Source of the DNA: Dactylosporangium sp. AC04546
GTDB taxonomy: Bacteria; Actinomycetota; Actinomycetes; Mycobacteriales; Micromonosporaceae
Assembly: GCF_022095675.1 (NCBI RefSeq)
Contig: NZ_JAHYSG010000001.1
Coordinates: 1-64,000, forward strand
Length of the DNA stretch: 64,000 nucleotides
Direction: 5' to 3'
The translations under genes and the position numbers were made by a program. Every line of letters begins with the position of its first letter. Positions within the stretch are counted from its first letter, which is position 1. Below the pieces are notes generated by a model. It was not told where the DNA came from and did no database searches. It saw only the letters and a list, made by a program, of their open reading frames with translations. Positions 8,361 to 51,039 of this stretch are shown here, in pieces.

Positions 8361-8383
8361 GATCGATGGTAGCCCGGCGGGCG

Positions 8384-13503: not shown

Positions 13504-13559
13504 AGACGCACCCTCACCCGTCCCGCTGAAGCGCCGCTGATGTGGTGCTGATGTGCGGA

Positions 13560-33238: not shown

Positions 33239-35812
33239 TCATCGTGGGTGCTCGGCCGACACCGTGGCGATGCTCCAGCTGATGGCCTCGACAAGCTCTT
33301 CGATGTGCCGTACGGGCTGTGGTCCGGCTATCGAGGTGAGCAGCCATGCGGACCGGCGCAGTACAGCGCGGGCGGCAAGAAGGCCCGCTTCGGCCTGGAG
33401 CCGGGCCAACTGCTGGGACTGAAACTCGGGCAGTCGGGACTCGGCCAGCATTTCGTCCGCGATGCTGGCCAGTTCTTCCGACGATCGGGCGAATCTCTGC
33501 CAGCCCGCCGGTGCGTACGTGCGGGCCAATTCCTCGCCTGCGGGTGCCGGGTCTTGGCCGCTCGCCAAGGCACGCCGGTAGTTCTGCGCCAGCACCGCGT
33601 ACCGCGCGGACACGGGGATCACCCGCTGGTCCTGATCGGCCGGTGCGATGTCGTAGAGGTAGCCGACCCGGCCGCGTACCTCGGCCAGCTCGGCCTGACT
33701 GTTGCGTTGGTCGGCCCGGTTGAGCAGGACCCAGAGTGCGTCGCGGCCCAGGACTTCCAGTGCCGGATCGACGAGTTCGGAGACGGCGAAGGCGGCCTCA
33801 CTGCCGACCTTGGTGTAGTCGGCGACGACGAAGATGATGTGTGCCCTTCGGGTCTGCGATGCGACTATGGCGCTGAACGCGTCGGTGGAACCGATCTCGT
33901 CCGGGCCCGGCGTGTCGATGAAGACTGCGGTCGTCGGGCCGGGCCACGCCGCCGGCAGGATCACCTCAAGCGGTGATCGCAGGGCCTCGGTGACCTCCAG
34001 ACCGAGCAGCAGAGCCAGACGGAGCAGGTCGTTGACCGCGACCAGCCGCTCGCGCACCGCCGCGGCGCCGACCGCGGCCGCGGACCACAGCGGACCGTTG
34101 TGCAGCGCCGCGACGGCGCTGTCGAGCTGCGGTTGCGCCTGGACCACCGCCATGCCTTCCCGCGTCTTGAGCAGATGGCGGACGGCCCGCTCGATCCGAC
34201 GGAGGGCGGCCAGCTGCGTGTCGGCGGCGCGCAACGCCACGGCGTCGACGCCGCCGAGAACGACCCTGGTGGCCAGCCCGGTCATCGCGGTACTTCGGCT
34301 CGGCAGGATGTCCGCGCCGACCATGGCGTTGATGAGCGTGGACTTCCCGGCCTTCATGGGCGCCAGCACTGCGATACACAACTCGGCTTCGCCCGCGGCG
34401 ACGCGGTCGAGGTCGCTGAGCAGGTCCCCGTGTTCCTGGGTCTCGTATCCACGCAAGAAGGTGGCGGCGTCCGCTGCGGCCACCCGCAGGAGGCCGGCTA
34501 CTTCGCCCGGCCGGGATCTCGACCAGCTGGCCAGCATGCCGGTCACGACGTTGAGTTGGGCACGGCACGTCTCGAGCTGTTGACGCCGTTCGCGCAATTG
34601 CGTCAGCTGTTCGGACCAGAGCCGGATCTCCTCGCGCAGTGTCTGGCGCCACTGCGCGAGGTAGCTGTCGCGGAGGGCGAAGAACGGCCGCAAGCTGTTG
34701 CCGCGGTGGTGATCAAGTCCCCGCCGGGCGTCTCTGACCAGAGCTTCGTAAGTCGATCGCCACGCCGATTCTGCCTGGGCCGTGACGAGCACCCGGTCGA
34801 CCACATACGCTGACGACCGCCAGGCACGCGCGGCGTCCGGACGCAGCTGGTGCGCGGTCAGGAGTCGGCGGAAACGTCCCGGGACCAAGTGTGGCGGGCG
34901 TAGGCCCGCGGGCAGAACCACGCTGGTCGCCGCCGCGGCCACCGCGGCGGCGACTCCTTTGGTGCGGACGCGTATGTCGCTCGGGTTGGGCAGTGAGGGC
35001 GGTGCCGGCGGGCGCTGGTAGTACAGCGCGGGGCGGAAGGCTTCCACCGCCATGGTGTTGGCGTGGTCGGCGTGCATCTGTTCGACGCTGTGTCGCAGGT
35101 ACGACTGGAGTTCGGCGACGGCGTCGCGGGCGTGGTGCTGGGCGGTGCCGGCCACGCCGGAGACGAAGCGCGTCGCGTACGTCGCCGCCCGCGGCAGATC
35201 TCGGAAGACTCGCCAGCGGTCGCGGTGCAACCGGGCGCTCCACCGTTCGGCGGGGCCGTTGTCGCCGCCCGACGCCGTGAAGACACGACTGTCGAGTTGG
35301 GACAATGCGTCGCCACCGCGCACCTGCAGGGTGAGTGACACGGTGCGGAAGGCGTCGGCGAGCTTGGCGACCACCTCACCTTCCGGCAGCGCGGCCTGGG
35401 TGATCTCGGTCAGGCGCACGGTCGTCACGTTGAGCCGCTCGACAGTCGCCTCCGCCGTGCTGATCCGGTCCGTGAGGTAGTCATCGACCGTGCGGAGCCC
35501 GAGCACCAGCGCGGCCGGCTCGGGCAGGCCCGTCCGCAGATCGCGCCGGAAGGCCAGTTGGCTCCTACGCAGCCACGGCGCCCGCTGATGCGTAGGCACG
35601 CGGCCCGGCGCGGTCGCAAGCAGCGCATCGGCCTTGTCGACCCAGGCCAGAGCCCTGGTGGTGCTGCGCTGCCGCGCCGAAGAGAGGCCCGCGATCCCGT
35701 GCGAACCGTCGACGGCCCAGGTGAGCAACTCGCGGGCGTACCACACGAGGCTGGATGCAAGGTCCTCCACGGGCGGGCTGTGCGGTGATCGGTCCTGCCC
35801 GGGACCGGTCAC
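33239..35812 (-). CDS. Large dynamin-like GTPase with long N-terminal helical extension
   Basis: An 857-residue protein. Unusually, the GTPase domain begins only at about residue 475: G1 APMKAGKS (484-491), G3 DTPGPDE (633-639), G4 LNRAD (697-701). The first 470 residues are helical with heptad-like stretches and a hydrophobic segment GVAAAVAAAATSVVLPAGL (286-304) that may act as a membrane-inserting paddle. The G1 and G3 sequences closely match those of the upstream partner at 35809. GTG 35812 overlaps its stop (GTGA), so the two are co-translated, as for paired bacterial dynamins that form hetero-oligomers. Probable role: membrane remodelling or tethering. Confidence 0.8.
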   Translation of the reverse strand: MTGPGQDRSPHSPPVEDLASSLVWYARELLTWAVDGSHGIAGLSSARQRSTTRALAWVDKADALLATAPGRVPTHQRAPWLRRSQLAFRRDLRTGLPEPAALVLGLRTVDDYLTDRISTAEATVERLNVTTVRLTEITQAALPEGEVVAKLADAFRTVSLTLQVRGGDALSQLDSRVFTASGGDNGPAERWSARLHRDRWRVFRDLPRAATYATRFVSGVAGTAQHHARDAVAELQSYLRHSVEQMHADHANTMAVEAFRPALYYQRPPAPPSLPNPSDIRVRTKGVAAAVAAAATSVVLPAGLRPPHLVPGRFRRLLTAHQLRPDAARAWRSSAYVVDRVLVTAQAESAWRSTYEALVRDARRGLDHHRGNSLRPFFALRDSYLAQWRQTLREEIRLWSEQLTQLRERRQQLETCRAQLNVVTGMLASWSRSRPGEVAGLLRVAAADAATFLRGYETQEHGDLLSDLDRVAAGEAELCIAVLAPMKAGKSTLINAMVGADILPSRSTAMTGLATRVVLGGVDAVALRAADTQLAALRRIERAVRHLLKTREGMAVVQAQPQLDSAVAALHNGPLWSAAAVGAAAVRERLVAVNDLLRLALLLGLEVTEALRSPLEVILPAAWPGPTTAVFIDTPGPDEIGSTDAFSAIVASQTRRAHIIFVVADYTKVGSEAAFAVSELVDPALEVLGRDALWVLLNRADQRNSQAELAEVRGRVGYLYDIAPADQDQRVIPVSARYAVLAQNYRRALASGQDPAPAGEELARTYAPAGWQRFARSSEELASIADEMLAESRLPEFQSQQLARLQAEAGLLAARAVLRRSAWLLTSIAGPQPVRHIEELVEAISWSIATVSAEHPR

Positions 35813-38196: not shown

Positions 38197-38269
38197 CCGG
38201 TCGTCCTGGAACAAGGACCGTGGTTGCGATCGTCCAACCGTCGAGGTGCCCACGCCCGGAAGGACGAAC
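38197..38269. promoter_or_regulatory. Divergent promoter region of the dynamin pair and Hsp70-IniC-IniA unit
   Basis: A 73-bp region separates the two divergent starts and must hold both promoters, implying coordinated control of the GTPase pair and the left Hsp70/Ini module. No strong dyad is visible. Confidence 0.45.
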
Positions 38270-40342
38270 ATGACGCAGTGGACGCTGGCGATCGACTTCG
38301 GCACGTCCTCGACTTCGGCCGCGTTTGACGACGGCGAGCACATCGACATCCTTGAGGTGGATAACAGCCGCTACCTGCCGTCGGTGGTGTTCCTGACCGA
38401 GGGCGGGGAAATGGCGACCGGCCGTAGCGCCATGTCGTCGGCCGGGGCGAACCCCGAGCGGGCGGTGCTGCTGCCGAAGCGGGCGCTCGCCACACAGGAG
38501 TACATCCGCCTGGCGGGCGAGTCCGTCGCCACGGTCGACCTGGCCTCCGCGGTCCTGCGCCGGATGGCCGACGAGGCGCAGGGTCGTTTCGGCAAGGTCG
38601 CTCCGGCCCGGCTGTTGCTCACCCACCCGGCCCGCTGGGGCGCGACCGAGCAGGGTGCGCTCGCCGACGCGGCGGCCGCGGCGGGGCTGCCCGACCCGGA
38701 GCTTGTGCCGGAGCCGGTGGCCGCCGCGTCGTACTACGCGACGCGCAACGTGCCGGTCGGCGCCTGCGTGGCCGTTTACGACCTGGGTGGTGGCACCTAC
38801 GACACGGCCGTCCTTCGCCGAACCGAGTCCGGGTTCGAGCTGCTCGCCATCGGCGGTAGCGACGAGATCGGCGGGGAGGACTTCGACGACGAGCTGGAGC
38901 GCATCGTCGGCCTGTCCGCCGCGCAGGTTGACGCCGACGTGTGGCACGCCATGCAGGACCGCAGCAACCGGGCGGCGACCCGGGCGGCGTGGCGGTTCCA
39001 CAACGACGTCCGGTTCGCCAAGGAGGAGCTCTCGCGCTTCGCTCAGCAGACGATCGTCGTCTTCGACCGGCTGGAGGTCAACGTTACCCGGGCGGAGCTG
39101 GAGAAGGCCGTCGGCGAGGACGTCGACGAGACTGTGACCGAGTTCCTCGCCACGGTGGAGCGGTCGGGTGTCGCGCTGGCCGACCTTAAGGGTGTGTACC
39201 TGGTCGGCGGCGCGAGCCGGATGCCGCTCGTCAGTGACCTGCTCACCCAGGCGCTCGGCCGGGTGCCGGACCTGGAAGCCGACCCGAAGTGCGTGGTGGT
39301 GGAGGGATCGCTGCTCTGGGCGCGACGGGTACCGCAGGCGCCGCCCCGGCCGCGGCCATGGCGCTACACCGATGCCGGTGGGGCGACCCAGCGCGCACCG
39401 TTGGCGACCGCGGCGGGAGTTGTGGTCGTCAGCGAAGAAGGCACCCTGTCGCTGCTGGACACCGCCTCCGGAGCGATCCGGTGGCAGAAGGTCCTGGAAG
39501 ACGGGGAGCTGGACGGCGGCGGGATGCTCCACCCGGTCGGCTACCGTGACCTCGTCGTGATCGGTTCCCAGGATGGTGGCGTCCGCGCGTACCGGATCGG
39601 CGACGGGACACCCGTCTGGCACGTCCGCTCCGACGTCCTCTCCGCACCACCCGCGGTCAGCGGTGACCTCGTGGTGGTCAGCGGCATGACGGGGACCATG
39701 GCGTTGGACGCCCGCAACGGAGGTATCCGGTGGCGGTACCTCTCGCAGTCTCCCGCGTTCGCCGCGCCGACCGTCTACGGCGATCTGGTGGTCGTGTGCC
39801 ACGAGGACGGCCGGGTCGTCGCCCTCGAACGTGACAAGGGAAAGGCCCGGTGGACCTGCTCGTTTGAGGCCGAGGTGTGGGCCCCCGGCGTCGGGTTCGA
39901 AGACCTGCTGATCTTCGGCGACGCCGCGGGTGACGTGCACGCCCTCGACGTCCAGCGCGGCGTGCCCCGCTGGGTCCACCGGATGCCGAGTGACATGTGG
40001 TCCACCCCGATCGTCCACGGCGGCGGACTGTATGTCTGCGACAGCACGGGAACCGTTCGACTGCTGGAGGCCGCCTCGGGCGTGGTCCGGCAGTCCTGGT
40101 CGGTCGCAGCCGGACTGCGGGACGCATCGGCGCTGCTGATCGGCGAGCAACTGTGCCTGCCGGACACGATGGGCAGCCTGACGATCCTGGATACGACGAA
40201 CGGCCGCAGCAGGTCGCTGGAGCTGACCTCGGTCGAGCTGAGCTCCTGTGTCACCGACCGGGGCGTGATCTTCGTCGCCGGTGGATCGAGCGTGTTCGCC
40301 GTCGACCCGCGTCCCCGAGCGCCGAAGGCGGTCGCGCTGTGA
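38270..40342 (+). CDS. Hsp70 nucleotide-binding domain fused to PQQ-like beta-propeller
   Basis: This 690-residue soluble protein has a canonical Hsp70-type actin ATPase: IDFGTSSTSA (8-17), the PKRAL lysine at 70, PEPVAAASYY, DLGGGTYDTA (171-180), VGGASRMP. After about residue 355 it lacks the peptide-binding domain. It carries a PQQ-like eight-strand-repeat propeller instead, with repeats such as GTLSLLDTASGAIRWQ and GRVVALERDKGKARW. There is no signal peptide or TM helix. It begins a three-gene unit with IniC-like and IniA-like GTPases (GTGA overlap with the next gene). Inference: an ATP-dependent switch that binds or disassembles the GTPases, perhaps recharged by the GrpE-like protein at 43778. 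Confidence 0.88.
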   Translation: MTQWTLAIDFGTSSTSAAFDDGEHIDILEVDNSRYLPSVVFLTEGGEMATGRSAMSSAGANPERAVLLPKRALATQEYIRLAGESVATVDLASAVLRRMADEAQGRFGKVAPARLLLTHPARWGATEQGALADAAAAAGLPDPELVPEPVAAASYYATRNVPVGACVAVYDLGGGTYDTAVLRRTESGFELLAIGGSDEIGGEDFDDELERIVGLSAAQVDADVWHAMQDRSNRAATRAAWRFHNDVRFAKEELSRFAQQTIVVFDRLEVNVTRAELEKAVGEDVDETVTEFLATVERSGVALADLKGVYLVGGASRMPLVSDLLTQALGRVPDLEADPKCVVVEGSLLWARRVPQAPPRPRPWRYTDAGGATQRAPLATAAGVVVVSEEGTLSLLDTASGAIRWQKVLEDGELDGGGMLHPVGYRDLVVIGSQDGGVRAYRIGDGTPVWHVRSDVLSAPPAVSGDLVVVSGMTGTMALDARNGGIRWRYLSQSPAFAAPTVYGDLVVVCHEDGRVVALERDKGKARWTCSFEAEVWAPGVGFEDLLIFGDAAGDVHALDVQRGVPRWVHRMPSDMWSTPIVHGGGLYVCDSTGTVRLLEAASGVVRQSWSVAAGLRDASALLIGEQLCLPDTMGSLTILDTTNGRSRSLELTSVELSSCVTDRGVIFVAGGSSVFAVDPRPRAPKAVAL

Positions 40343-41799
40343 CCGATCAGATCGTGGCGACGCCGCTGAGCGATCGCCTGCGCGACATCCTGGTCGACGT
40401 CGAGCCCCGCCTGCCAGAAGGCCAGGCGCGTCAGGCGGTGCGGGCCGGCCTCGCACGCCTGGCCGACCCGAAGCTGCGCATCGCCGTCGGTGGCCGGCTC
40501 AACGCGGGGAAGTCGACACTGGTCAACGCGCTGCTGGGCAGCCAGCTCGCGCCGACGGACGCCACCGAGTGCACCCTGCTCGCGGCCTGGTTCCGCTATC
40601 ACCACCGCAATCAGGTCGAGGTGCATTTCCGCGACGGCACGTCGACGGTCATTCCGGCCGCGCCCGGCGGTGGCGTGCCGGCTCGTGTGCCGTTCGACCA
40701 GCACACCGTGACGCATCTGACGGTCTGGGCGCCCGTCGAAGGCGTGGACCACGACTTCATCCTGATCGACACCCCCGGTCGGGACGCCGTGTCAGGGCTG
40801 GACGACTACTCGATGGAGGCGATCCGTCAGGCCGACGGACTGATCTTCGTGATGCACGACCCCGGCGAGGTCGAGCTGCGTGCGTTGGAGGAGTTTCGCG
40901 GCGCTGTCGCGAGCGCCCGGCTGTCCGCGGACAATGTCATAGGGGTGCTGAGCCGGATCGACACGATCAGCGATCATCTGGCGCCCGCAGAACAACGCGC
41001 GGAGGCGTCGAAGATCGCGGCGCGGGCAGCGGCCCGGCTGCGCGGGTTGATCGGCACGATCCTCCCGGTGGCCAACCGTGTCGCGCAGGCGGCCGGCTGT
41101 GGCCATCTCACTGAGAGCCATGCCGCGACGATCGCCGCGTTGGCGCGGCTGGACGAGCCGCAGCGGCGTCGCCTCCTGTTCGACAACACCCGCTTCCTCA
41201 CCAGCCCGGCCGGCACGGTCAGCGAGGCCGCGCGCGCCGATCTGCTGGCCATGCTCGGCCGCTACGGCGTGACCGAGGCGATCGCCGCCGTCGACAACGG
41301 TGCCCGTGGCGCCACCGCGATCCGAACGGCGCTGCTGTCCGCCAGTGGCCTGATCGACCTGCAGGAGCTGATCCGGCAACGGTTCCTGCTCCGGGCAGAC
41401 GCGTTGCGGGTCGACTCGGTCCTGGCCGGGCTGCGTCGAGTGACCGGCGACGCTCCCATCGACAGCACGCTGCGGGGCCTCGCCGACGCGATCAACGTGC
41501 TCCGCCGCGACCCGGCCCTGCGCGTGGCCGAACTGGCCGAGGTGGCCCGCGCCTACGCCGCGGGCCACCTCGAACTCACCGACCGCCTCGCCGCCGACCT
41601 GCATGACCTGCTCACCGGCGCCACACCGGCGCAGCGCCTCGGCCGGGACGCGGCCGCCACCGACGACGAGCTGCGGGCGGAGGCGGACCGGCGGATCGGC
41701 CGGTGGCAGACCTTCGAGTTCGACCTGCCCCGGCGTTCACGACGACTGGCGCGCATCGTCATCGAACTACTCAACGAGGTGTGGTTCCGGCTCGACTGA
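40339..41799 (+). CDS. iniC: IniC-like dynamin-superfamily GTPase
   Basis: A 486-residue GTPase: G1 GGRLNAGKS (51-59), the APTDATECT switch region, G3 DTPGRD (144-149), G4 SRID (205-208). Length and motifs match mycobacterial IniC (about 490 residues), including the P-T-D-A-T-E and WFR elements after G1 and the conserved L-x-x-L-I-x-x-R-F segment in the helical half. There is no TM helix. In mycobacteria iniC lies in the isoniazid-induced iniBAC operon with the membrane dynamin IniA; here the order is Hsp70-iniC-iniA. The symbol reflects family recognition, not proven orthology. Confidence 0.82.
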   Translation: MTDQIVATPLSDRLRDILVDVEPRLPEGQARQAVRAGLARLADPKLRIAVGGRLNAGKSTLVNALLGSQLAPTDATECTLLAAWFRYHHRNQVEVHFRDGTSTVIPAAPGGGVPARVPFDQHTVTHLTVWAPVEGVDHDFILIDTPGRDAVSGLDDYSMEAIRQADGLIFVMHDPGEVELRALEEFRGAVASARLSADNVIGVLSRIDTISDHLAPAEQRAEASKIAARAAARLRGLIGTILPVANRVAQAAGCGHLTESHAATIAALARLDEPQRRRLLFDNTRFLTSPAGTVSEAARADLLAMLGRYGVTEAIAAVDNGARGATAIRTALLSASGLIDLQELIRQRFLLRADALRVDSVLAGLRRVTGDAPIDSTLRGLADAINVLRRDPALRVAELAEVARAYAAGHLELTDRLAADLHDLLTGATPAQRLGRDAAATDDELRAEADRRIGRWQTFEFDLPRRSRRLARIVIELLNEVWFRLD

Positions 41800-41845
41800 G
41801 CCGGAACCCGCCGTCACCGATGCTGCAGAGGGAGAGGAGACAACG

Positions 41846-43759
41846 GTGACCAGAAAGTCGAGGCATCCGCTGGCCACGGCCGTGGCGGACCTGGCCGGCC
41901 GCATCGCCGACATATCGGACCGCGTTGGGGAGGAGCAGACCGGGCTCCTGCTGCGGCACCGGGCACAACTGGCCGGCTTCCCCGGCTCCACACTCGTGGT
42001 GGTCGGCGAGAAGAACCGGGGCAAGAGCTCCTTGATCAACGCGTTGATCGAGCGAGAGGACCTGCTGCCGGTCAACGCGGACATCGCCACGCACACGTAC
42101 GTCGTCGTGCGGCACGGTGTTCCCGAAGAGGCACGCGCGTTCACGCCGAACGACATCGACGGCGTCGACATCGGAATCGACCGGATCGCCGAGTTCGCGG
42201 GCCTGGCCGACCAGGGCGAGGACCGTGAGCCGCTGCACCCGGATGTGGTACGGGTCGAGGTCACGGTGGACTCACCGCTGCTCCGCGACGGTCTGGTGCT
42301 GGTCGACACCCCCGGCGTGGGCGGGCTGGTCGCCGGGCACACCGCAGTCACCCTCGCCACCCTGGATCGGGCGGACGCGCTGGTCTTCGTGGTCAACGGC
42401 GCCGGCGAACTGCACAAGTCGGAGCTCGACTTCCTGAAGAAGGCTGCGGACCGCACCTCGACCGTGCTGTTCGTCCTCACCCGTATCGACACGTATCCGC
42501 AGTATCAGCAGGTACTGGCGAAGAACCTGGAACTGCTCCGGACGCATGCGCCGTCGTTGGCGAAGTCGCCCTGGTTCCCCGTCAGCAGCCGGCAACGGTT
42601 CGAGGCAGGGCGTGCCGAGGCCAGCGGTGACCCCGACTTCGCCCGGGAACTGCGGGAGAACAGCGGGTTCGACGCGCTCACCCAAGAGCTCACGGGGCGG
42701 GTGCTGCTGCGGGTGGAACAGGACCTGCTGCTCGGGGTCGTGGCGGTCGGCGCGAACGCCGTGGAGCAGATGGACGCTGTCGCAGCGACGGGGATCACGC
42801 TGCTGACGCCCGACGAGGCGACCATCCAGTCCATCAACGCACAACGCGAGGTCACCAACGCACTGTCCGACCCGAACGCACCCTGGCACGCCGAACTCAG
42901 CCAACGGTTGACGGCGGTTCGTGACGAGCTCCGCCAGCACGCCGCGGCCGGCGTCCGCGGCCTGCGCGCCACGGCGGACGCCGCGATTGACGAGGGCGGT
43001 CGGGACATGCTCGTGTCGGTGCCGCGCGACTTCGCCGACGGTTCCCGCGGGCTGGCCATGGAGCTGGAGAGCCGCCTTCGATCGGAAGTTGTCGACGTGA
43101 CGACGTGGCTGGCCGGCGAGCTACGGCTGGCCGGCGTGGATTCGACCGCAACACCGCTGGGCCACCGGCCCGGTGCGGACGCAGCGCCGACGGCGGATGC
43201 TCCGGCCGGCGGACTGGTCGACTGGCCTACACCCACGATGCCCGGCACCGACGCTCTGAGCGCGGTCGGCGGGGCCGACCAGTACGGGAAGATGCTGCGT
43301 GAGCCGGCCGGAAACGCGCTGCGCAAGTTCGGCGAGATCTGGCGCGCAATCGAACCGAAGCGGCAGCGGAACATCGTCATCGCCGCGGTGGCGGTCACCA
43401 TCGCAGCCACCGTGGGTATTGTCGGCTGGGTCGTGAGCCGTCGTCGGTCGGCCAGCCGGAAGGCCCTCATCGAGGAGATCGATCGGGGCACGACGGACCT
43501 CTACACCACGCTCGACGCTCAGCTCGTGGCCGAGGTGGACCGCCTCCGTGCCGAGATCACCAGCAACGCCACTCGGCAGCTCGCCCACCGCTTCAGCAGT
43601 CTCGCGAACGCTTACACGGAGGCCCAGGCCAACCTCACCGCTGCCGAGGCTGACCTGGCACCCCGCCGGAAACTGCTCGAAGAGCGCCGCGGTGAGCTTG
43701 CCACCCTCAGGGGTGAGGTCACTGAGCTGCGTGAGCGGCTCGCCCGCCTTGAGCCGTAG
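41846..43759 (+). CDS. iniA: IniA-like membrane dynamin GTPase
   Basis: A 637-residue GTPase: G1 GEKNRGKS (54-61), G3 DTPGVGG (154-160), G4 LTRID (211-215). After a helical stalk comes one hydrophobic segment (509-530, VIAAVAVTIAATVGIVGWVV), flanked by basic residues, then a C-terminal coiled coil. Mycobacterial IniA has about the same length, the DTPGVGG-L...H switch and a membrane segment at this place, and can promote membrane fission; that activity is assumed here by homology. The start is GTG 41846 with GAGGAGA upstream, 46 bp after the IniC stop. Its stop is 18 bp from that of the convergent GrpE-like gene. Confidence 0.83.
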   Translation: MTRKSRHPLATAVADLAGRIADISDRVGEEQTGLLLRHRAQLAGFPGSTLVVVGEKNRGKSSLINALIEREDLLPVNADIATHTYVVVRHGVPEEARAFTPNDIDGVDIGIDRIAEFAGLADQGEDREPLHPDVVRVEVTVDSPLLRDGLVLVDTPGVGGLVAGHTAVTLATLDRADALVFVVNGAGELHKSELDFLKKAADRTSTVLFVLTRIDTYPQYQQVLAKNLELLRTHAPSLAKSPWFPVSSRQRFEAGRAEASGDPDFARELRENSGFDALTQELTGRVLLRVEQDLLLGVVAVGANAVEQMDAVAATGITLLTPDEATIQSINAQREVTNALSDPNAPWHAELSQRLTAVRDELRQHAAAGVRGLRATADAAIDEGGRDMLVSVPRDFADGSRGLAMELESRLRSEVVDVTTWLAGELRLAGVDSTATPLGHRPGADAAPTADAPAGGLVDWPTPTMPGTDALSAVGGADQYGKMLREPAGNALRKFGEIWRAIEPKRQRNIVIAAVAVTIAATVGIVGWVVSRRRSASRKALIEEIDRGTTDLYTTLDAQLVAEVDRLRAEITSNATRQLAHRFSSLANAYTEAQANLTAAEADLAPRRKLLEERRGELATLRGEVTELRERLARLEP

Positions 43760-43777
43760 CGAGCCGCTCGGTCGCCG

Positions 43778-44296
43778 TCAGCCTGCCGTGCCGGCCTGGT
43801 CCAGGTCGGCACGGTAGACGACGACCTTAGGACGGCGGAGGTACCGCCCGTTGCGCCGGTAGCCCACCAGCTCCGTCGTGGCGACGGTCATGTGCCGGCT
43901 TGCGTCCGTCGTGGCTTCCCGGCCGGTCGCGTCATGTCGGTCGCTGTTGAAGGGCTCGCCGTCGGCCATGATGACCTCGACGTCCACCAGTGCGAGGCGG
44001 CTGTTGAACTGCCGCCACAGCACCTCGTTCTGGTCGCGGAGCCGGTCGGCCTGGTCGATGCAGATGTTCAGCAGCTGCGTCAGCGCCGCGCTGTCCGCGG
44101 TGGCGCCGCGGTCGGCGGGGGCCGGCACCGGTTCGCTGGCTGTCGGGGCCGGGGTTTGGGTCGGCGAGGGGTACCTCGGAGGCGCGACCGGGGCTGCGGT
44201 TGACGCGGGTGTTGTCGCCGGTTTGAGGTGATAACCGACGGCCACCCCCACGGCGACCCCGGCCGCGAATCCCCCCATTACGCCTACGATCGCCAT
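43778..44296 (-). CDS. Membrane-anchored GrpE-like nucleotide exchange factor
   Basis: This 172-residue protein has one N-terminal TM helix (3-22), a Pro/Thr/Ala-rich linker (25-62) and a C-terminal domain that reads as the head of GrpE. A helix (LLNICIDQADRLRDQNEVL) is followed by D-G-E-P-F-N-S-D-R-H-D-A, T-V-A-T-T-E-L-V-G-Y-R-R-N-G-R-Y-L-R-R-P and V-V-V-Y. This matches the GrpE beta domain pattern (G-x-x-F-D-P-x-x-H-x-A ... GY-x-x-x-x-R-x-L-R-x-A). The long GrpE coiled coil is much shortened. Housekeeping GrpE is soluble; membrane anchoring beside Hsp70-like ATPases suggests it recycles them at the membrane (inference). Confidence 0.75.
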   Translation of the reverse strand: MAIVGVMGGFAAGVAVGVAVGYHLKPATTPASTAAPVAPPRYPSPTQTPAPTASEPVPAPADRGATADSAALTQLLNICIDQADRLRDQNEVLWRQFNSRLALVDVEVIMADGEPFNSDRHDATGREATTDASRHMTVATTELVGYRRNGRYLRRPKVVVYRADLDQAGTAG

Positions 44297-44362
44297 GGCA
44301 TTCCCTTCGGAATTCTCTATTGTGCGCTATTGTTGACGCTGGCTGCCCTTCTGGGCGTCCAT

Positions 44363-44390
44363 ATTCCTGATTTCTGATTTCTGAATTCTG
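44363..44390. repeat. Four tandem 7-bp AT-rich repeats upstream of GrpE-like gene
   Basis: Minus-strand units CAGAATT, CAGAAAT, CAGAAAT, CAGGAAT run without gaps, about 67-94 bp before the GrpE-like start. The 125-bp gap (44297-44421) is strikingly AT-rich for this genome and also contains a small GCCC-TTCT-GGGC hairpin (44345-44356). Possible regulator-binding iterons. Confidence 0.6.
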
Positions 44391-44421
44391 GTGGAGCGGG
44401 ACGGCTCGCGCCGTGCCTGGG

Positions 44422-44568
44422 TCAGGTGTCCAGGTCGTAGCCGTCGACGCCGTGGACGTAGTCGTCGACCGACTCATATCCGGTGTGGTCGGCGGATTCG
44501 ATCACGTCGTCCGAGGTCAGTCGCCCGTCGTCCCAGGTCTTGTCGTCGTCGTCATCGTCGTAGGACAT
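44422..44568 (-). CDS. 48-residue Asp-rich acidic peptide
   Basis: A 48-codon ORF begins 1 bp after the stop of the IniA-like gene with a strong AGGAGGGGA site. It encodes 16 Asp and 2 Glu out of 48 residues against one Lys and one Arg, starting MSYDDDDDDK and containing several Asp-Asp pairs. There is no signal peptide. Coupling to the GTPase gene and the good ribosome site support real translation. It may be a charge-mimic inhibitor, a metal-binding or DNA-mimic peptide, or a tether for the basic GTPase surface; none of these is shown. The Asp/His-rich tail of the cyclase-like protein at 30936 is compositionally similar. Confidence 0.6.
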   Translation of the reverse strand: MSYDDDDDDKTWDDGRLTSDDVIESADHTGYESVDDYVHGVDGYDLDT

Positions 44569-44569
44569 C

Positions 44570-46462
44570 TCATTCCCCTCCTGCCGTTGTTGATCCTGCC
44601 GGTACCGAGGCTGCCGTTGCCGAGCCCAACTCGTCGCCGAGCCGGGCGGCCCGCCGGGCCAGCTCCGAGAGCCGCTCCACCCGCTCCTGGGCAACGGCCC
44701 GCTCGGCCGCTAACGCCTCCTCGGCCGCCTGTGCGGCCCGTTCGCTCTGGGCGATCGCCGACTCGAGCTCTGCTCGGCGCGCGGTGAGCTGCTCGGTGAA
44801 CAGCTGCTCCAGGCGTTCGCTCACCTCCCGGAGGGTGGCCTTGAGCGCCGGGGCGAACTCCGTCTTCATCTCGGCCACGATGACCTGCAGGTGCTGTTTG
44901 GCGGAGGCGCGGTCACGGGCCAACTGCTCGCGCAGCTTGCGCCGTTTGTGCAGGAAGTAGCCGGCGCCCAGTCCTGCCGCGAGCCCGGTCAGCGGCGCGA
45001 TCCAACCGATGAGGCCGAAGACCATGAGGCCCGCGCCTGTCCCAGCTATCCCGTGCTCGATGCTGGCCAGGTTTCTGCCGGGCGGTGGGGTCGACGCCAG
45101 CTCAGGCAATGACCGTAGCCGCTCCGGGACCGACAGGCCCGCGTCGAGCGACTCGTCAGCCGGCAGCTTGCTCGCCGCCTCACGGACGATGTCGGAGAGC
45201 CGGCGGCGTAGTTCCGCGTCCAGGTCCGCCCAGAGTGCCTGGACTGAGTCGACGAGCTGTGAAGGGAGCTCGTTGATCATCGTCGGCCCGCCGTCGAGGA
45301 TGCGCTGCGCCGTCCGCGCGGACAGGTCGTTGAGCCCGCGGTGGAACCGTAGCGTCAGATCCTCCTCCAGGCTCCGAAAGCTGCGCTTGAGGCTGGTGCG
45401 CCACGTTGCGCCCTGGTCGAGCAGGCTCTTGAGCCGGCGGCGCTCGATATCGGCTGCGGCCACCAGCGCCGGGTCCCGGCGCAGCGAACGCAGGGACAGT
45501 TCCTCGGCACCGAGCATCTCCTGCGCGGCCCGCTCGCACACCTGAACAGCGTTGGCCAGGTGCAGGAGCTGTGCCCGTCTGGCCACCCGGTGCCGCAGCG
45601 CCGTCTCCAACCCGTCGAATCCGCTCGTGGCCAGCCACTCGGCCGCCTTGTCGGGATTCCCCTCGGCGGCGCACCGGCCGGCCTCTTCGCGGAGCAGGCT
45701 GCTCACCGCGAACCAGGGGGCCGACGAGTGCCCAGGGGCGTGAGCGGCGATGAGCTCCCGGTTGCGATCGAGGGTCTGGCGCCAGTGCGGGTACTTGTCG
45801 ATCTGGGTGAGCACGAAGAGCACCGTCGCGATCCGCCCGGTCACGCTGGCCAGGAAGGCGCATTCGGAGCTGGTCAGCTCGCTCGCCCCGCTGACCACGA
45901 AGATCAATGCGTCGGCCCGGTCGATCGCGGCCATCGTAACGGCCGCGTGCCCGGAGACAAGGCCACCGACGCCCGGTGTGTCCACAAGCGACAGACCTTC
46001 GAGCAGTGGGTGCGGTAGCCCGACGCCCACGTGGGACACGTCGGGGTGACGGACCTCCTGAGTGACCGGGTCCAGTCCGGCGAACTCACCGACCTCGGCC
46101 AGCTCGATCGGACGGCCGCCCGGGCTGGCAAGGTCGACGACGTGAGCCTCGGCCTGGGGCGCGTAGAACACGGTGAGGTGCACGCAGCTCGCCACGTCGG
46201 CGTCGACCGGTAGCAGGCCGGGCCGCTCGACAAGTGCATTGATGAGTGAGCTCTTTCCGCGTTTCTTCTCGCCGACGACAACCACGGTCGCCGGCCCCGA
46301 CCGCTCGGCGCCTGACACGCCGCTCAGCAACTGCTCCGCATCTTCGTCGTCGCGCTCGGCGGCCAACTCGGCGAGCTCGGTGATCAGGCTCGCGACCTCG
46401 CCGGTCAGCGGATGCCGGCCGCCATCATGCCGTGTCGTCGGACTCTTTCTGGTGCCACCCAT
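44570..46462 (-). CDS. iniA: IniA-like membrane dynamin GTPase, second copy
   Basis: A 630-residue paralogue of the IniA-like protein at 41846: G1 GEKKRGKS (64-71), G3 DTPGVGG (161-167), G4 LTQID (218-222). A double hydrophobic hairpin lies at 472-504 (AGLMVFGLIGWIAPLTGLAAG), unlike the single segment of the other copy, and is closer to the mycobacterial IniA membrane paddle. A long Glu/Ala-rich coiled coil ends the protein. It follows the second IniC-like gene by 119 bp and is coupled to the acidic peptide. The two copies clearly share ancestry, but sequence drift suggests an old duplication. Confidence 0.83.
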   Translation of the reverse strand: MGGTRKSPTTRHDGGRHPLTGEVASLITELAELAAERDDEDAEQLLSGVSGAERSGPATVVVVGEKKRGKSSLINALVERPGLLPVDADVASCVHLTVFYAPQAEAHVVDLASPGGRPIELAEVGEFAGLDPVTQEVRHPDVSHVGVGLPHPLLEGLSLVDTPGVGGLVSGHAAVTMAAIDRADALIFVVSGASELTSSECAFLASVTGRIATVLFVLTQIDKYPHWRQTLDRNRELIAAHAPGHSSAPWFAVSSLLREEAGRCAAEGNPDKAAEWLATSGFDGLETALRHRVARRAQLLHLANAVQVCERAAQEMLGAEELSLRSLRRDPALVAAADIERRRLKSLLDQGATWRTSLKRSFRSLEEDLTLRFHRGLNDLSARTAQRILDGGPTMINELPSQLVDSVQALWADLDAELRRRLSDIVREAASKLPADESLDAGLSVPERLRSLPELASTPPPGRNLASIEHGIAGTGAGLMVFGLIGWIAPLTGLAAGLGAGYFLHKRRKLREQLARDRASAKQHLQVIVAEMKTEFAPALKATLREVSERLEQLFTEQLTARRAELESAIAQSERAAQAAEEALAAERAVAQERVERLSELARRAARLGDELGSATAASVPAGSTTAGGE

Positions 46463-46581
46463 TGCCCAACCTCACCTTCGCCGGCGCCCTTCGACACCGG
46501 GCCGTCCTCGACGTTGGACGACCGCGACCGGGTGGATGTTCCCGCCCGCGGCACCGATCCCGATCCTCCGGCGGGCGAGCC

Positions 46582-48060
46582 TTACCAGGTCGACCGGTGT
46601 GACGCCGAGTAGTAGATCGACTCGAACGCCTCGCGGACCAGTCGCACGCACCCGCGGACGGCTCGCAGATGCGGCACGTCGAGCGCGCGCCAGCGGCGGA
46701 TTCGCTCGTCGGCCGCGGCCGCGATCTCGAACGCCAGCCCGGCCGCGTCCAGCGGCAGACCCACCCGTTCCGCGTCGGTGCGGCCCCGGACCAGGTCCAG
46801 CGCGTCGCGCTGCGTGGTCTCGTCGAACGGCGCCTCGGCCAGGTTCAGATCGGCGAGCGCCATACCGACCGCCACCAGCCGCACGGCCGGATGCGTCTGC
46901 AGCTCGGCCAACGTAGCGCGGAGCGCGGCGGCGGCCTGGCGCTGCTGCGACGGGCCGTCCGACCAGGCGATCAGGTCCAGTGCCGCGAGGGCCGACGCAG
47001 CGCGCAGGACATCAACGGCCGGCACGAAACGCTCCTCGATGACCGCACGCAGCGCGCCCAGCCCGGACCGTTCGGCCAGCTCGGTAAGCAGCGCATGTGC
47101 GCCGATCACCCCCGTGTCGACGAGGCTGAGCGCCTCGCGGATGCCGTGCAGACCGAGCAGCGCGACGAGGCGTTGCCGTGCCACGGCGCCGACCGGCGAG
47201 TCGGTGTCGGCGACGAACAGGTCCGCGGAGAGCAGCATCCCGCGTCGTTCGCCGGGCAGTGTTGCCGAGGCGATGGTGCGGATCGCAGCCGCGTCGGCCT
47301 CCGTGAAGTCGTCACCGCACGCGGTCTGGGCCAGGAGGCCCACGACGGGCAGCACGTCTACGACGCTCATGCGCAGTTGGGCCGCGTACCGCTCGGCAAC
47401 TCGCCGCGCGGTGGGCCACGGGTCGGAGCGGCCGTCGCCGAGCTGGTCGACCCGGCTGAGCACGCCGACGGCGTTCGCCACTGACAGCCCAACCGTCGAC
47501 GCCGTCGCCCGCAGCGTCTCCAGCGCCTCCCGCTCCCGCGAACCCGGATGCGGCATCACGAACACGAGGGCGTCACATGCCCGTAGCGCAGCCATCGACA
47601 TCTCGTCGAGTCCGGAGAGCGCGTCGAGGCCCGGCGTGTCGACCAGCGTGTAGCGGGCGAGCCGCGCGTTGGGCACTGCGACCGTGACCGACTCGATCCG
47701 GCCGGCCGGGCGGCCCAGGTCGGCGGGGACCGTGCCGCCCGGGGCGAGCGGCAGCTCATATGGTGGTCCCTCGCGCGGATCGATGCGCACGACGGCGCGA
47801 TGGTGGTTGCGGAACCACGTCACCAGCTTCGTGCATTCGGTCGCGTCCGTGGCGGCGAGGCGTTGCCCGATCAGCGCGTTGACCAAGGTGGACTTTCCGG
47901 CGTTGAGCCGACCCCCGATCGCGACGCGCAACGTCGGCTCGTCCAGACGAGTGACCACCGCTGCGACCGTCTTGCCAACCGGACTGTCCGGACTGATCTC
48001 TGCCAGCGCTGTTGCGCACGCGGTCCGGATCTGGTCGCTGAGCGGGGTGGGCGATGTCAT
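46582..48060 (-). CDS. iniC: IniC-like dynamin-superfamily GTPase, second copy
   Basis: A 492-residue GTPase: G1 GGRLNAGKS (49-57), the ATDATECT switch with TWFRNHH, G3 DTPGLD (141-146), G4 SRVD (202-205). The helical half contains ERSGLGALRAVIEERF, a segment shared with mycobacterial IniC. ATG 48060 overlaps the ECF sigma stop (ATGA), so GTPase synthesis is coupled to sigma synthesis. It parallels the first IniC-like gene at 40339, but its transcription unit is headed by a sigma factor rather than by the Hsp70 fusion. Confidence 0.82.
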   Translation of the reverse strand: MTSPTPLSDQIRTACATALAEISPDSPVGKTVAAVVTRLDEPTLRVAIGGRLNAGKSTLVNALIGQRLAATDATECTKLVTWFRNHHRAVVRIDPREGPPYELPLAPGGTVPADLGRPAGRIESVTVAVPNARLARYTLVDTPGLDALSGLDEMSMAALRACDALVFVMPHPGSREREALETLRATASTVGLSVANAVGVLSRVDQLGDGRSDPWPTARRVAERYAAQLRMSVVDVLPVVGLLAQTACGDDFTEADAAAIRTIASATLPGERRGMLLSADLFVADTDSPVGAVARQRLVALLGLHGIREALSLVDTGVIGAHALLTELAERSGLGALRAVIEERFVPAVDVLRAASALAALDLIAWSDGPSQQRQAAAALRATLAELQTHPAVRLVAVGMALADLNLAEAPFDETTQRDALDLVRGRTDAERVGLPLDAAGLAFEIAAAADERIRRWRALDVPHLRAVRGCVRLVREAFESIYYSASHRSTW

Positions 48061-48635
48061 GCCGCGTTGCTGGCGCTGAGCAGTGCGACGAGACCCTGGC
48101 GTCCGCGCGAGATCTGCGACTTGACGGTGTCGATCGGTACATCCAGGATCTCAGCGATCTCGCGGTACGAGAACCCCCAGAACTCACGGAGGGCCACCGC
48201 GTTGCGGAACTGGACCGGCAGCTGTGACATGGCCCGGATGACGGCGAGCCGGTCGGTCACGGCGTCCTCCACCGCCGCCATGGGCGCCGGCACGGCGGGA
48301 AGGTCGTCAACAAGATCGGGCCGCCGCCGCCGACGCCGCACCTCGTCAATGGCGGCGTTCGTGGCCACCCGGTAGAACCACGTGCCGATCTGGGACCGCC
48401 CGTCGAAGGTTGAAATCCGTTGCCACGCTGTGGTCAAGGCGTTCTGCAGTGCGTCGAGGGCGTCGTGCTCGTTGGCGGTGACGCGCCGGCAGATCGCATG
48501 CATTCGGGCCTGGTGGCGGCGAGCGAGCGCGTCGAACGCCCGCCGGTCCCCGGCGGCCGCACGGCTGACGAGTTCGTCGTCCGGCTGATCAGCCGTCGAC
48601 GATGCTGAACGTGGATTACTGTCACCGTCCCACAC
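48057..48635 (-). CDS. ECF RNA polymerase sigma factor heading the right module
   Basis: This 192-residue sigma factor has region 2 (DRRAFDALARRHQARMHAI, DALDALQNALTTAWQ, IGTWFYRVATNAAIDEVRRR) and a full region 4 (LPVQFRNAVALREFWGFSY, then EIAEILDVPIDTVKSQISRG). GTG 48635 starts it. As first gene of the sigma-IniC-IniA-peptide(-GrpE) unit it probably activates its own operon under envelope stress, as many ECF factors do. No dedicated anti-sigma gene is adjacent, so the control route is unclear; the Hsp70-like proteins are one possibility (speculative). Confidence 0.87.
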   Translation of the reverse strand: MWDGDSNPRSASSTADQPDDELVSRAAAGDRRAFDALARRHQARMHAICRRVTANEHDALDALQNALTTAWQRISTFDGRSQIGTWFYRVATNAAIDEVRRRRRRPDLVDDLPAVPAPMAAVEDAVTDRLAVIRAMSQLPVQFRNAVALREFWGFSYREIAEILDVPIDTVKSQISRGRQGLVALLSASNAA

Positions 48636-48747
48636 AGCCGGAAGTGTAGAAAGTCGAAGATCCGGAGCGAGTCTTCGTGATCGTCAAATAATGGTGAACG
48701 TTCGGCCGATACGTTCCGGCAAACTGTGATTATGGCCGCCCGGGCGT

Positions 48748-51039
48748 TCAGGACACATCGCCGGTACGGGAGTTTATGGCGTGCAAGACGGCACCGGCCG
48801 AGCCGAATGTATCGCCCTGAACCGCCAGAAACATGATGTCTCCGACGATCATCGGACCGGTCAACGGTGAACCTGACAACTCGGTCCGCCACAGGGTCGC
48901 ACCGGTGGTCAAATCAACCGCCGACGCGGCGGATCGGCCGGTTCCGATGGCTCCGAACGAGACCGACGGTGTCCAGAGAAGATGCGCCTGCCCGTTGGCG
49001 ATAACCGGTTCGGCGGCGAACGCCCCGCTGGCAACCGCCCAGCGGGGTCGGCCCGAGACGGCGTCGAAGGCCACGACAGCGTCGGCGAGCCGTCCGCACA
49101 CCGATCCTTCCCCGACCGAGGGCAGGGCAGCGAACGCCTTGTCCTCGGCGGTGCGCCACAGCAGCGCGCCGTCGTCCGCCGCGAATGCGGCGATCCCTTT
49201 TCGCACCAGGTACAGCAGATCCCCGTGTGCCAGGACTGTGCCGGACCCGACGTGTTCGTTGACCCGCCAGATGTTCGCTCCGGACTCGGCGTCGAGTGCG
49301 TGCAGGCTGTCGGCGCCGCACACGTACACGACCCCGGCCAACACAGTCACTCCGCCGCCGGCACCGGGCGCACCCCGTCCGACCGCGACCCGCCACAACT
49401 GCGCGCCCGTCTCGGCATCAACGCAACGCACACCCCCGTCAGCGGTGCACAGATACATCCGGCCGTCACCGGGGGAAGAAACCGCCGTGATGTCGGCGTC
49501 GGACATGACGCGCCAGCGGTCCTTACCGGCTTGGTCGAGCCGGCGCACTTCCCGCTGCATCGACACAGCAACACCGGCCGGGTCGACAATTGCCCGGCCC
49601 GGGGCCTGGTACGCCCAGCGCGGCTTCCCGGTCGTGGCGTCGAGCGCCAACACACGGATGCCATCGTGACCGTACACGAGCCCACCCGCGACCTCGAGCT
49701 GGCGCAGCGGCGGCACCGGAGGCGACGTCCACCGTACGGTGCCATCGAAACGGTCCGCCGCAGCCACGGCGGCGCCGGCGACGAACACGGTCTCGCCGGC
49801 GTACGCCAGCGCCGTTGCCGCGCCGGGCACACGAACCCGCCATGGCCGCCACCCGGCCGGCCGGGTGCCGACGCTCGGCACGGTCGGCAACGGCCCGGCA
49901 TCCGGTTCACGGCCGGCCCGGTAACTGCTCAGCCAGGTCACGGCGACCGGAGGGGGAGGATACTCCTCGCCGAGACGAATCCGGGTGCGGCACAACGCGC
50001 CGAGCGTCACGATGCTCTTCGGGTCCCTGGCCAACACGGGCGTACGGCCCAACGCATCGGTGAGGAGGGCTGCCACCAGCGGTATTCGGCACGAACCGCC
50101 GGCCAGAAAGACCGCGGCGAGATCCGCCACGCGCAACCCCGCCCGGCCGACGGTGGCTCGCAACTCGTCGGTGGCGCTGCGAATCAGCGGGTCGAGCTGT
50201 GCCTCGAACTCCGGCCGAGTCACCCGGATCCCGGCCGAGAAGCCCGCTGGAAGGATCATGTGGGCGGTGTGTTCGGAGAGTGCGTGCTTGAGGTCGGTCA
50301 CGCCGTGCTGCAGTTCAGCCCGGTCGGCGGCTGCGCGCGGGTCGGCGTTGCCGGTGAGTCCGGCCCACGCCGCCGCATCGGCGGCGATCGCGTGCTTGGC
50401 CACGATGTCGAAGAGCAGCCCGTCGAGTTCGTCGCCGTCCAGGGTCTTGTCACCGCCCGGCGGTCCGATCACGGTGAACCCTGATCTGGTGCGCCGCAAC
50501 ACCGCCGTCTGCAAGCCTGAGCCACCTAGGTCGAACACCGCGACGTACGAATCGAGCGGGAGCCCAGCACCGTAATACGCGGCGGCGGCCACCGGCTCGG
50601 CTACAAAGCTCGGCTCCGGCAGGCCGACCTGGCTCGCGGCCGCTGCGAGCTGCGCCAGTTCGCGCTCGCCCCACCGGATTGGATGGGTCATCCGCAGCTG
50701 TGTGGGCGGGCTGCCGAAGGTCTTCCTCGCCTCCGTGACGACGCGGTCAAGTACGGCGGCGACCATGTCGCGCGCCTCTATGTCACGGCCGCCGAGCCGG
50801 ACCGACGGGCGTGCCGCCGACAGTGCCCGCTTGGGCTGCCACTCGGCCAGCGACGGAGTAACCCCAGCCTGTTGAACGGCGGCCTTCCCGGTGAGCAGCC
50901 GACCGTCTGGCCCGACGCAGACGGCCGATCGCAGCGCCGGCCCGGCCTCCAGCTCGAGCAGTGTGGTGGTGCCACCGGAGTGCGCGGCCGCAGTGGTGAC
51001 GTGCATGCCGAAGTCGACCGAAAGTGTCCAGCCCGTCAT
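48748..51039 (-). CDS. Hsp70-like NBD/PQQ-propeller fusion with degenerate phosphate loops
   Basis: A 763-residue homologue of the protein at 38270, with the same layout: actin-fold domain (1-355), linker, PQQ-like propeller. Phosphate-contact loops are altered: VDFGMHVTTAA replaces the DFGTSST motif, and FDLGGSGLQTA (169-179) replaces DLGGGTYDTA, losing the Thr and second Asp. The lysine in QPKRAL (70) and EPVAAAAYY are kept. ATP binding may survive with weak hydrolysis, making it a possible sensor or regulatory subunit. It is transcribed on its own, 112 bp upstream of the sigma gene on the same strand, and divergent from the small ORF at 51615. Confidence 0.85.
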   Translation of the reverse strand: MTGWTLSVDFGMHVTTAAAHSGGTTTLLELEAGPALRSAVCVGPDGRLLTGKAAVQQAGVTPSLAEWQPKRALSAARPSVRLGGRDIEARDMVAAVLDRVVTEARKTFGSPPTQLRMTHPIRWGERELAQLAAAASQVGLPEPSFVAEPVAAAAYYGAGLPLDSYVAVFDLGGSGLQTAVLRRTRSGFTVIGPPGGDKTLDGDELDGLLFDIVAKHAIAADAAAWAGLTGNADPRAAADRAELQHGVTDLKHALSEHTAHMILPAGFSAGIRVTRPEFEAQLDPLIRSATDELRATVGRAGLRVADLAAVFLAGGSCRIPLVAALLTDALGRTPVLARDPKSIVTLGALCRTRIRLGEEYPPPPVAVTWLSSYRAGREPDAGPLPTVPSVGTRPAGWRPWRVRVPGAATALAYAGETVFVAGAAVAAADRFDGTVRWTSPPVPPLRQLEVAGGLVYGHDGIRVLALDATTGKPRWAYQAPGRAIVDPAGVAVSMQREVRRLDQAGKDRWRVMSDADITAVSSPGDGRMYLCTADGGVRCVDAETGAQLWRVAVGRGAPGAGGGVTVLAGVVYVCGADSLHALDAESGANIWRVNEHVGSGTVLAHGDLLYLVRKGIAAFAADDGALLWRTAEDKAFAALPSVGEGSVCGRLADAVVAFDAVSGRPRWAVASGAFAAEPVIANGQAHLLWTPSVSFGAIGTGRSAASAVDLTTGATLWRTELSGSPLTGPMIVGDIMFLAVQGDTFGSAGAVLHAINSRTGDVS

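Follow-up and report, generated by a model that had tools for sequence, protein, structure and literature searches.

The 64,000-nt stretch of the Dactylosporangium sp. AC04546 genome analyzed here (NZ_JAHYSG010000001.1; hereafter, the window) encodes two pairs of the dynamin-like GTPases IniA and IniC together with two Hsp70-type proteins, a GrpE head protein, an extracytoplasmic function (ECF) sigma factor and an acidic micropeptide. The association of IniA/IniC with Hsp70 and the GrpE head is conserved across actinobacterial families, far beyond chance from the IniA and GrpE sides, and, judging from phylogenetic analysis, the window Hsp70s belong to a dedicated, dynamin-linked Hsp70 lineage. 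We propose that these genes comprise a conserved membrane-remodelling module in which an Hsp70 nucleotide-binding domain (NBD) and the GrpE head form a dedicated switch acting on IniA/IniC, an interpretation to which we give an even chance of being correct.

Conservation of the IniA/IniC, Hsp70 and GrpE head association

A profile of the two window IniA proteins and three paralogues from the same genome matches the structure of Mycobacterium smegmatis IniA (6j72_A) over positions 21–629 of 640 (E=1.2e-53), and an IniC profile matches both bacterial dynamins in the PDB and IniA, within the GTPase domain. Tandem IniC genes with GTPase motifs are confirmed in the window, and IniC is encoded in all but one of the best 79 IniA loci (of at least 568), picked by similarity to the window IniA. 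According to profile searches, these 79 loci further include 54 with the GrpE head and 26 with Hsp70, both being present in 14. In a class-wide sample of 60 genomes, IniA was found at E≤1e-20 in 16 genomes besides that of Dactylosporangium, and an Hsp70 is encoded in the fetched stretch at nine of these 16 loci versus 0.36 expected from the number of Hsp70 genes and the size of each genome (P ~8e-12, with kinship ignored). All nine are IniA–IniC pairs, from five families; five loci without a recognized IniC also lack Hsp70, two of the stretches (L169 and L172) being short. The Hsp70-like matches at L163 and L166 are weak (66–80 bits), albeit above the Pfam cut-off, and the L166 stretch also includes dnaK itself. 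All these searches scored part of the candidates in each genome, up to 20 for class-wide IniA, 17 for the reverse search with Hsp70A, 8 for DynX2, 50 for the GrpE head and 12 in the other search of the order sample; weaker unlinked relatives can be missed throughout.

The association is also apparent when approached from GrpE. The GrpE-head model was derived from heads in loci that had been retrieved through IniA, Hsp70 or dynamin matches, almost every one of these heads being next to Ini genes. In 101 genomes of the order sample, it yielded 33 heads at 96 bits or more, several of which are its own rows. All but one of these are encoded within 6 kb of IniA, 27 of them within 500 bp, and the remaining one (G068) lies on a contig without an IniA match. 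Five further matches at 50–52 bits, on contigs that have no IniA match either, are probably canonical GrpEs. Conversely, 33 of the 56 IniA genes in this sample have a head within 6 kb. The gene order is conserved as well: among the annotated loci that encode both IniA and IniC, the head is on the same strand as the nearest IniA in 72 of 72 cases and sits between co-directional IniC and IniA in 67. The window is an exception in that its head follows IniA_B. A second two-copy island resembling the window was observed in Actinomadura (L056; head at 7668–8485, minus strand), where two GrpE heads adjoin two IniA genes.

In the reverse direction, the stretches around the 40 best relatives of the window protein Hsp70A outside its own genome, drawn from an order sample of 121 genomes and counted without a computed expectation, contain IniA/IniC in 16 cases, 14 of them with the head, which is present in none of the other 24. 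The co-occurrence search called for in the preliminary description of this island thus succeeded far beyond chance from the IniA and GrpE sides, and from the Hsp70 side as a plain count. These results bear on the trivial explanation, namely, that the neighbourhood arose by chance or because duplicated genes generally cluster in so large a genome. The 50 HSP70 matches in the genome of Dactylosporangium speak for it, as do the Hsp70s next to three of its other dynamin loci, which group with unlinked Hsp70s. Nevertheless, the association recurs in genomes with only 3–9 Hsp70 genes, across many families, and 32 of 33 GrpE heads are found beside IniA, which refutes this explanation for IniA with the head and for the window-type Hsp70 and renders it hardly tenable overall.

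Lineage and architecture of the Hsp70s and the GrpE head

In a phylogenetic tree of 61 NBDs, built without five short Hsp70 fragments, Hsp70A and Hsp70B of the window fall inside a clade of 18 rows (support 100/99) that consists exclusively of Ini-linked Hsp70s. The other 16 rows of this clade come from six families, and none of the 19 unlinked rows from the Dactylosporangium genome (a sample of its roughly 45 Hsp70 genes in which one DnaK gene is represented twice) is inside. The clade was kept, with support 98, in an enlarged tree of 97 rows that includes the 40 Hsp70s of the reverse test and omits the linked L166_12068, L163_4972 and L074_544 and the unlinked ownL021_1444. On this tree, nine changes of linkage were counted versus a mean of 31.7 in shuffled data, and none of the 500 shuffles gave a number as low, near-copies being included. 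Because most of the linked rows had been found via IniA, so that unlinked members were possibly missed, 15 genomes were searched with a profile built from 12 members of the clade. It gave 15 matches at 365 bits or more, 14 of which are Ini-linked (11 being the profile's own rows); the one exception (L213) is on a 6.9-kb contig that encodes another Hsp70 along with an ECF factor and ends before any Ini gene. The remaining matches score at most 334 bits, among them an Ini-linked one from Phytohabitans, with the head (L217, 323 bits), and three from the Dactylosporangium genome, without Ini linkage (L214–L216, 315–326 bits).

The Hsp70 family is unusually expanded in this 13-Mb genome (G000): some of the 50 matches are two pieces of one gene, and most of them are not near dynamin matches. 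The window itself encodes a further Hsp70-type protein (16983–19319, plus strand), unlinked to dynamins, with a TM-like (transmembrane-like) segment and, by eye, a WD40-like C-terminus.

The linked Hsp70s share the NBD and differ in the parts that follow it. None of the 54 Ini-linked Hsp70s surveyed (those at 200 bits or more) matches the substrate-binding domain (SBD) of the Dactylosporangium DnaK in phmmer searches, whereas four of four control Hsp70s do. The survey excluded the unlinked window Hsp70, the cut dnaK of L166 and the Hsp70-like genes of L163 and L166 that fall below the limit. According to hydropathy, the C-terminal parts comprise 15 tail anchors, 12 central transmembrane segments with a further part, seven bare NBDs and 20 others, so that a membrane anchor or transmembrane segment is predicted in 27 of the 54; the others include the PQQ propellers of the window and the WD40 repeats of a Parafrankia protein (L059). 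The fusion of two window Hsp70 domains to PQQ propellers, described previously, is borne out by Pfam for both proteins. Hsp70A retains the ATPase motifs DFGT and DLGGGTYD along with the catalytic residues K70 and E171. In Hsp70B, the phosphate motifs are degenerate (DFGMHVT, and DLGGSGLQ versus DLGGGTYD in Hsp70A), with neither DFGT nor DLGGGT present, and this protein is probably a pseudo-ATPase.

Uncoating of clathrin by Hsc70 and auxilin depends on a J-protein and an SBD. The Pfam scans of genes from the window and related loci revealed no J-domain, which, together with the missing SBD match, disfavours uncoating of the Hsc70/auxilin type. Given that the NBD is constant and the domain that would position it is variable, use of the NBD as an allosteric switch is favoured over a copy of the Hsc70/auxilin machinery. 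The original suggestion that these Hsp70s are dedicated disassembly or loading factors thus fares unevenly: the window Hsp70s do belong to a clade of dynamin-linked Hsp70s, but clathrin-style uncoating by the module is not supported, given also the degenerate Hsp70B. The same domain census bears on a biogenesis role, under which the Hsp70/GrpE pair would stabilize or load IniC or IniA without any part in the remodelling cycle. Such a helper, in favour of which the poor stability of purified IniC noted in PMC6715688 can be cited, would normally need precisely the SBD that is matched in none of the linked Hsp70s, and we find this role decidedly unlikely.

The GrpE head consists of a helix and a beta-wing, with most of the stalk absent. 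Its profile matches solved GrpEs, and the predicted fold, which includes the beta-wing and the head, matches GrpEs solved together with DnaK. The full long N-terminal stalk helix, responsible for dimerization, is not present: residues 24–60 are rich in Pro, Ala and Thr, and the first helix of the model starts at residue 61, aligning from residue 76 of 1dkg_B, with low confidence before residue 61. A putative function of the head is to release ADP from the partner Hsp70.

Taken together with what is known of bacterial dynamins, the following mechanism can be envisaged. IniA and IniC would assemble on the plasma membrane as paired GTPases, whereas the Hsp70, cut down to the NBD, with a beta-propeller, a membrane anchor or some other C-terminal part to position it in place of the SBD, would serve as an ATP-driven switch acting on their assembly. 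The GrpE head, reduced and partly membrane-anchored, would reset the Hsp70 of the same locus through ADP release. The acidic protein would probably be a shared partner or client, and regulators of the ECF or STAND/LuxR type would switch the operon on, most likely upon envelope stress, a trigger suggested by homology to iniBAC. We infer that the target of the Hsp70/GrpE pair is most likely the assembly or disassembly of the GTPases, presumably through contact with them. More specifically, we tentatively entertain the possibility that a GrpE-gated, SBD-free NBD, held at the membrane or on a propeller, serves as the ATP clock of the dynamin pair that couples the ATP and GTP cycles, with the drug-stress dynamins of mycobacteria being a reduced form of this system. 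If the proposal holds, the SBD-less Hsp70, the GrpE head and the acidic protein would provide IniA/IniC with a defined control system, and Hsp70 with GrpE would function purely as a nucleotide switch rather than as a chaperone that binds clients. The dynamin, GTPase and Hsp70 genes in a row on all four plasmid records opened (see below) also favour the module, and the copies on plasmids, together with the several copies in the Dactylosporangium genome, suggest a self-contained, transferable unit. We know of no dedicated regulator of any bacterial dynamin, although no search was aimed at one.

Several observations weigh against a dedicated switch. The co-occurrence is incomplete, only 14 of the 79 IniA loci combining the head with Hsp70, and the partners are distributed unevenly. 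In Pseudonocardiaceae (44 loci), the head is present in 41 and Hsp70 in 8, the other 36 showing no Hsp70 within the stretch, and in Micromonosporaceae (18 loci), only three have the head and only five Hsp70. The corresponding counts of heads and Hsp70s are 4 and 6 in Streptosporangiaceae (7 loci), 0 and 3 in Streptomycetaceae (3 loci), 1 and 1 in Frankiaceae and likewise in Thermomonosporaceae (1 locus each), 0 and 1 in Acidimicrobiaceae (1 locus), and 4 and 1 in four further loci. In the class-wide sample, the IniA–IniC pairs L165 and L168 lack Hsp70 and the head is found at just one of the 16 loci (L157); for 23 of the 56 IniA genes of the order sample, no head is encoded less than 6 kb away. 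Furthermore, Hsp70s beside the dynamin loci L041, L043 and L044 of the Dactylosporangium genome group with unlinked Hsp70s, so that their closeness to dynamins may be fortuitous. The degenerate Hsp70B and the lack of a J-domain match belong here as well. Such loci, above all those without Hsp70 in Pseudonocardiaceae and those without Hsp70 or the head in Micromonosporaceae, show that some lineages can do without the partners or encode them at another place in the genome.

Organization of the window, regulators and mobility

The features of the window, as identified with the help of a Pfam scan of 20 of its proteins, are given in Table 1. Judging from strand and spacing, the conserved genes probably form two convergent operons. 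The plus arm runs Hsp70A, IniC_A, IniA_A and the minus arm Hsp70B, ECF, IniC_B, IniA_B, acidic peptide, GrpE, both of the latter genes thus being on the minus arm.

Table 1. Genes of the dynamin island and its dynamin neighbours in the window.
Feature	Coordinates	Strand	Evidence and remarks
DynX1, dynamin, ~480 aa N-terminal to the GTPase domain, neighbour	33239..35812	-	Pfam Dynamin_N; 4-bp overlap with DynX2
DynX2, CrfC-like dynamin, neighbour	35809..38202	-	NCBIfam CrfC 1e-36, under the model's cut-off
Hsp70A, Hsp70 NBD and PQQ-type propeller	38270..40342	+	Pfam HSP70 2e-33, PQQ_2 4.6e-33
IniC_A, dynamin-like GTPase	40339..41799	+	Pfam Dynamin_N; overlaps Hsp70A stop by 4 bp
IniA_A, dynamin-like GTPase	41846..43759	+	Pfam Dynamin_N; match to M. 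smegmatis IniA (6j72)
GrpE head, predicted to be membrane-anchored by an N-terminal hydrophobic segment	43778..44296	-	Pfam GrpE E=8.8e-8
Acidic micropeptide, 48 aa, 38% D+E	44422..44568	-	
IniA_B, dynamin-like GTPase	44570..46462	-	Pfam Dynamin_N; IniA profile
IniC_B, dynamin-like GTPase	46582..48060	-	Pfam Dynamin_N; overlaps ECF stop by 4 bp
ECF sigma factor	48057..48635	-	Pfam Sigma70_r2 2.7e-16, r4_2 7e-14
Hsp70B, Hsp70 NBD and PQQ-type propeller, degenerate phosphate motifs	48748..51039	-	Pfam HSP70, PQQ_2

The membrane-associated GrpE-like protein, the ECF factor and the acidic peptide of the preliminary description are all present where they had been placed, the hydrophobic segment of the former being a predicted anchor. 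All six dynamin GTPases were recovered too, with the P-loop, DTPG and a G4-like motif kept in each; however, only four of them belong to the conserved set. The DynX1/DynX2 pair at 33–38 kb is, by sequence similarity, a different, CrfC-like dynamin lineage that lies outside the conserved module. This pair is directed away from Hsp70A, and a search of 118 genomes for DynX2, with up to 8 candidates scored in each, gave a match at E≤1e-30 in just one, that of Dactylosporangium sp. AC04546 itself. The DynX2 reading frame extends to 38349, the start at 38202 being chosen to avoid Hsp70A. As for the mirror-image character of the island, the IniC–IniA pairs do converge, at 43759/43778, but a recent inverted duplication is rejected because the proteins of the two arms are just 32–40% identical (IniC 39.6%, IniA 40.2%, Hsp70 32.4%). 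By this measure the two arms are ancient paralogues.

In 51 of 115 loci, strongly acidic open reading frames lie no more than 1.5 kb from an Ini gene, and their density there is 15 times that beyond 3 kb. One such family, in loci of the Pseudonocardiaceae type, is DUF6802 (a cluster in 34 loci, with Pfam run on one member), and the window peptide resembles, by eye, the end of a reading frame beside IniA in Actinacidiphila (L068). In another island of the Dactylosporangium genome (C88; L041, 7521–8237, minus strand), an acidic protein that by eye is C39-peptidase-like lies between IniC and IniA, with no match to the head.

The regulators allow a different interpretation, namely, that the Hsp70 NBD and the head sense envelope or protein stress and signal to ECF or STAND proteins, thus controlling the expression of the dynamins rather than the dynamins themselves. 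Of the 79 IniA loci, 13 contain an ECF cluster and 18 a cluster of LuxR/AAA-type regulators (the scanned member combines LuxR with a weak AAA match); at L163 and L166, which also encode iniC, a LuxR-type regulator adjoins the Hsp70-like gene and iniA. The transmembrane segments predicted in half of the linked Hsp70s would suit a sensor as well. Against this stands the usual position of the head between iniC and iniA, an order that suggests work with the GTPases, along with the lack of an ECF match in all 14 reverse-test loci that combine Hsp70, head and Ini genes. We consider the sensor function somewhat unlikely.

Mobility and the company of other GTPases lead to yet another scenario, a role in conflict or phage defence as the dynamin counterpart of DO-GTPase systems, in which the GTPases would wreck or seal membranes on infection, with a threshold set by the chaperone. 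A DO-GTPase-like cluster (Pfam run on two L056 members) occurs beside Hsp70 and Ini genes in six of the 79 loci (L056, L057, L065, L066, L068 and L070), and the PADLOC models LeoA and LeoBC match IniA and IniC with up to 84.5 bits (LeoA 4e-23 for IniA_A, LeoBC 2.3e-24 for IniA_B). IniA_B also matches 41 records of a plasmid collection that includes some chromosome-sized records. In all four that were opened (three from Gordonia and one from Rhodococcus pyridinivorans; two mobilizable and one conjugative), a dynamin match, a GTPase and an Hsp70 follow in a row, the Rhodococcus Hsp70 on the opposite strand. Plasmid copies and the several paralogues in the Dactylosporangium genome fit this scenario, and a chaperone precedent exists in conflict systems, with HSP70 and GrpE in ~14% of GAP1-N2 neighbourhoods (PMC7159879). 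On the other hand, IniA_B gave just a single short match in phages, covering 28% of the query. Furthermore, 41 of 44 Pseudonocardiaceae loci encode the head, in contrast to sporadic defence genes, and likeness to LeoA/LeoBC is expected of any paired bacterial dynamin. A defence function thus strikes us as unlikely.

Two observations from these loci are recorded separately. The conjugative Rhodococcus plasmid (L219), which encodes two Hsp70s and a sigma factor besides the dynamin and GTPase, comes near the window in gene content. In Actinomadura L056, the DO-GTPase-like gene beside Hsp70 and Ini genes is at 11639–13618 (minus strand), and both L056 and L068 encode, by eye, a cyclase-like protein.

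Comparison with known systems

In titles and abstract openings of open-licence PubMed Central articles, with subscription papers and preprints outside this scope, no description of Hsp70 and GrpE with IniA/IniC-type dynamins was found. The earlier view that no bacterial system with this gene set has been described is nevertheless not upheld in full, because parts of the set have precedents (PMC5760070 and PMC7159879).

The closest known relative is iniBAC. The window IniA matches M. smegmatis IniA over nearly the full length and is likewise paired with IniC. In PMC6715688, M. smegmatis IniA is reported to deform and cut membranes in vitro, with GTP-dependent fission, and analysis of IniC was prevented by its poor stability once purified; by analogy, membrane fission is a putative activity of the window IniA/IniC. 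A 2017 paper (PMC5760070) states that a dnaK-like gene adjoins iniR in M. smegmatis and that iniB is absent there. The L163 and L166 loci, from genomes of the same order, show such an arrangement of an Hsp70-like gene beside a regulator, and the GrpE head was found in neither. The iniBAC system differs from the window in having iniB and IniR; the window has the ECF factor, the GrpE head, the acidic peptide and two copies. Among the 20 Pfam-scanned window proteins, there is no STAND/LuxR regulator of the IniR type, the ECF factor and the acidic peptide being present instead, and no iniB turned up, although no iniB model was run.

Compared with the DnaK–GrpE cycle, the window type lacks a matched SBD, the N-terminal part of the stalk and a recognized J-domain. 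LeoABC resembles the window in its tandem dynamin genes and through the PADLOC matches, and the pairing of bacterial dynamins is remarked upon in a passage of PMC4159319; this system differs in that Hsp70 and GrpE go unmentioned in the main text of that paper.

Finally, the GAP1-N2 systems of Kaur et al. (2020) likewise combine GTPases with HSP70 and GrpE. In that article (PMC7159879), the HSP70 of DO-GTPase systems is said to be sometimes devoid of the peptide-binding domain, and the theme to be found mostly in actinobacteria and firmicutes; its main text contains neither "dynamin" nor "IniA". The window GTPases differ in being dynamins, with no DO-GTPase match in the Pfam scan. Nevertheless, given that some Ini/Hsp70 loci hold DO-GTPase-like genes, these genes possibly bridge the dynamin and DO-GTPase systems.

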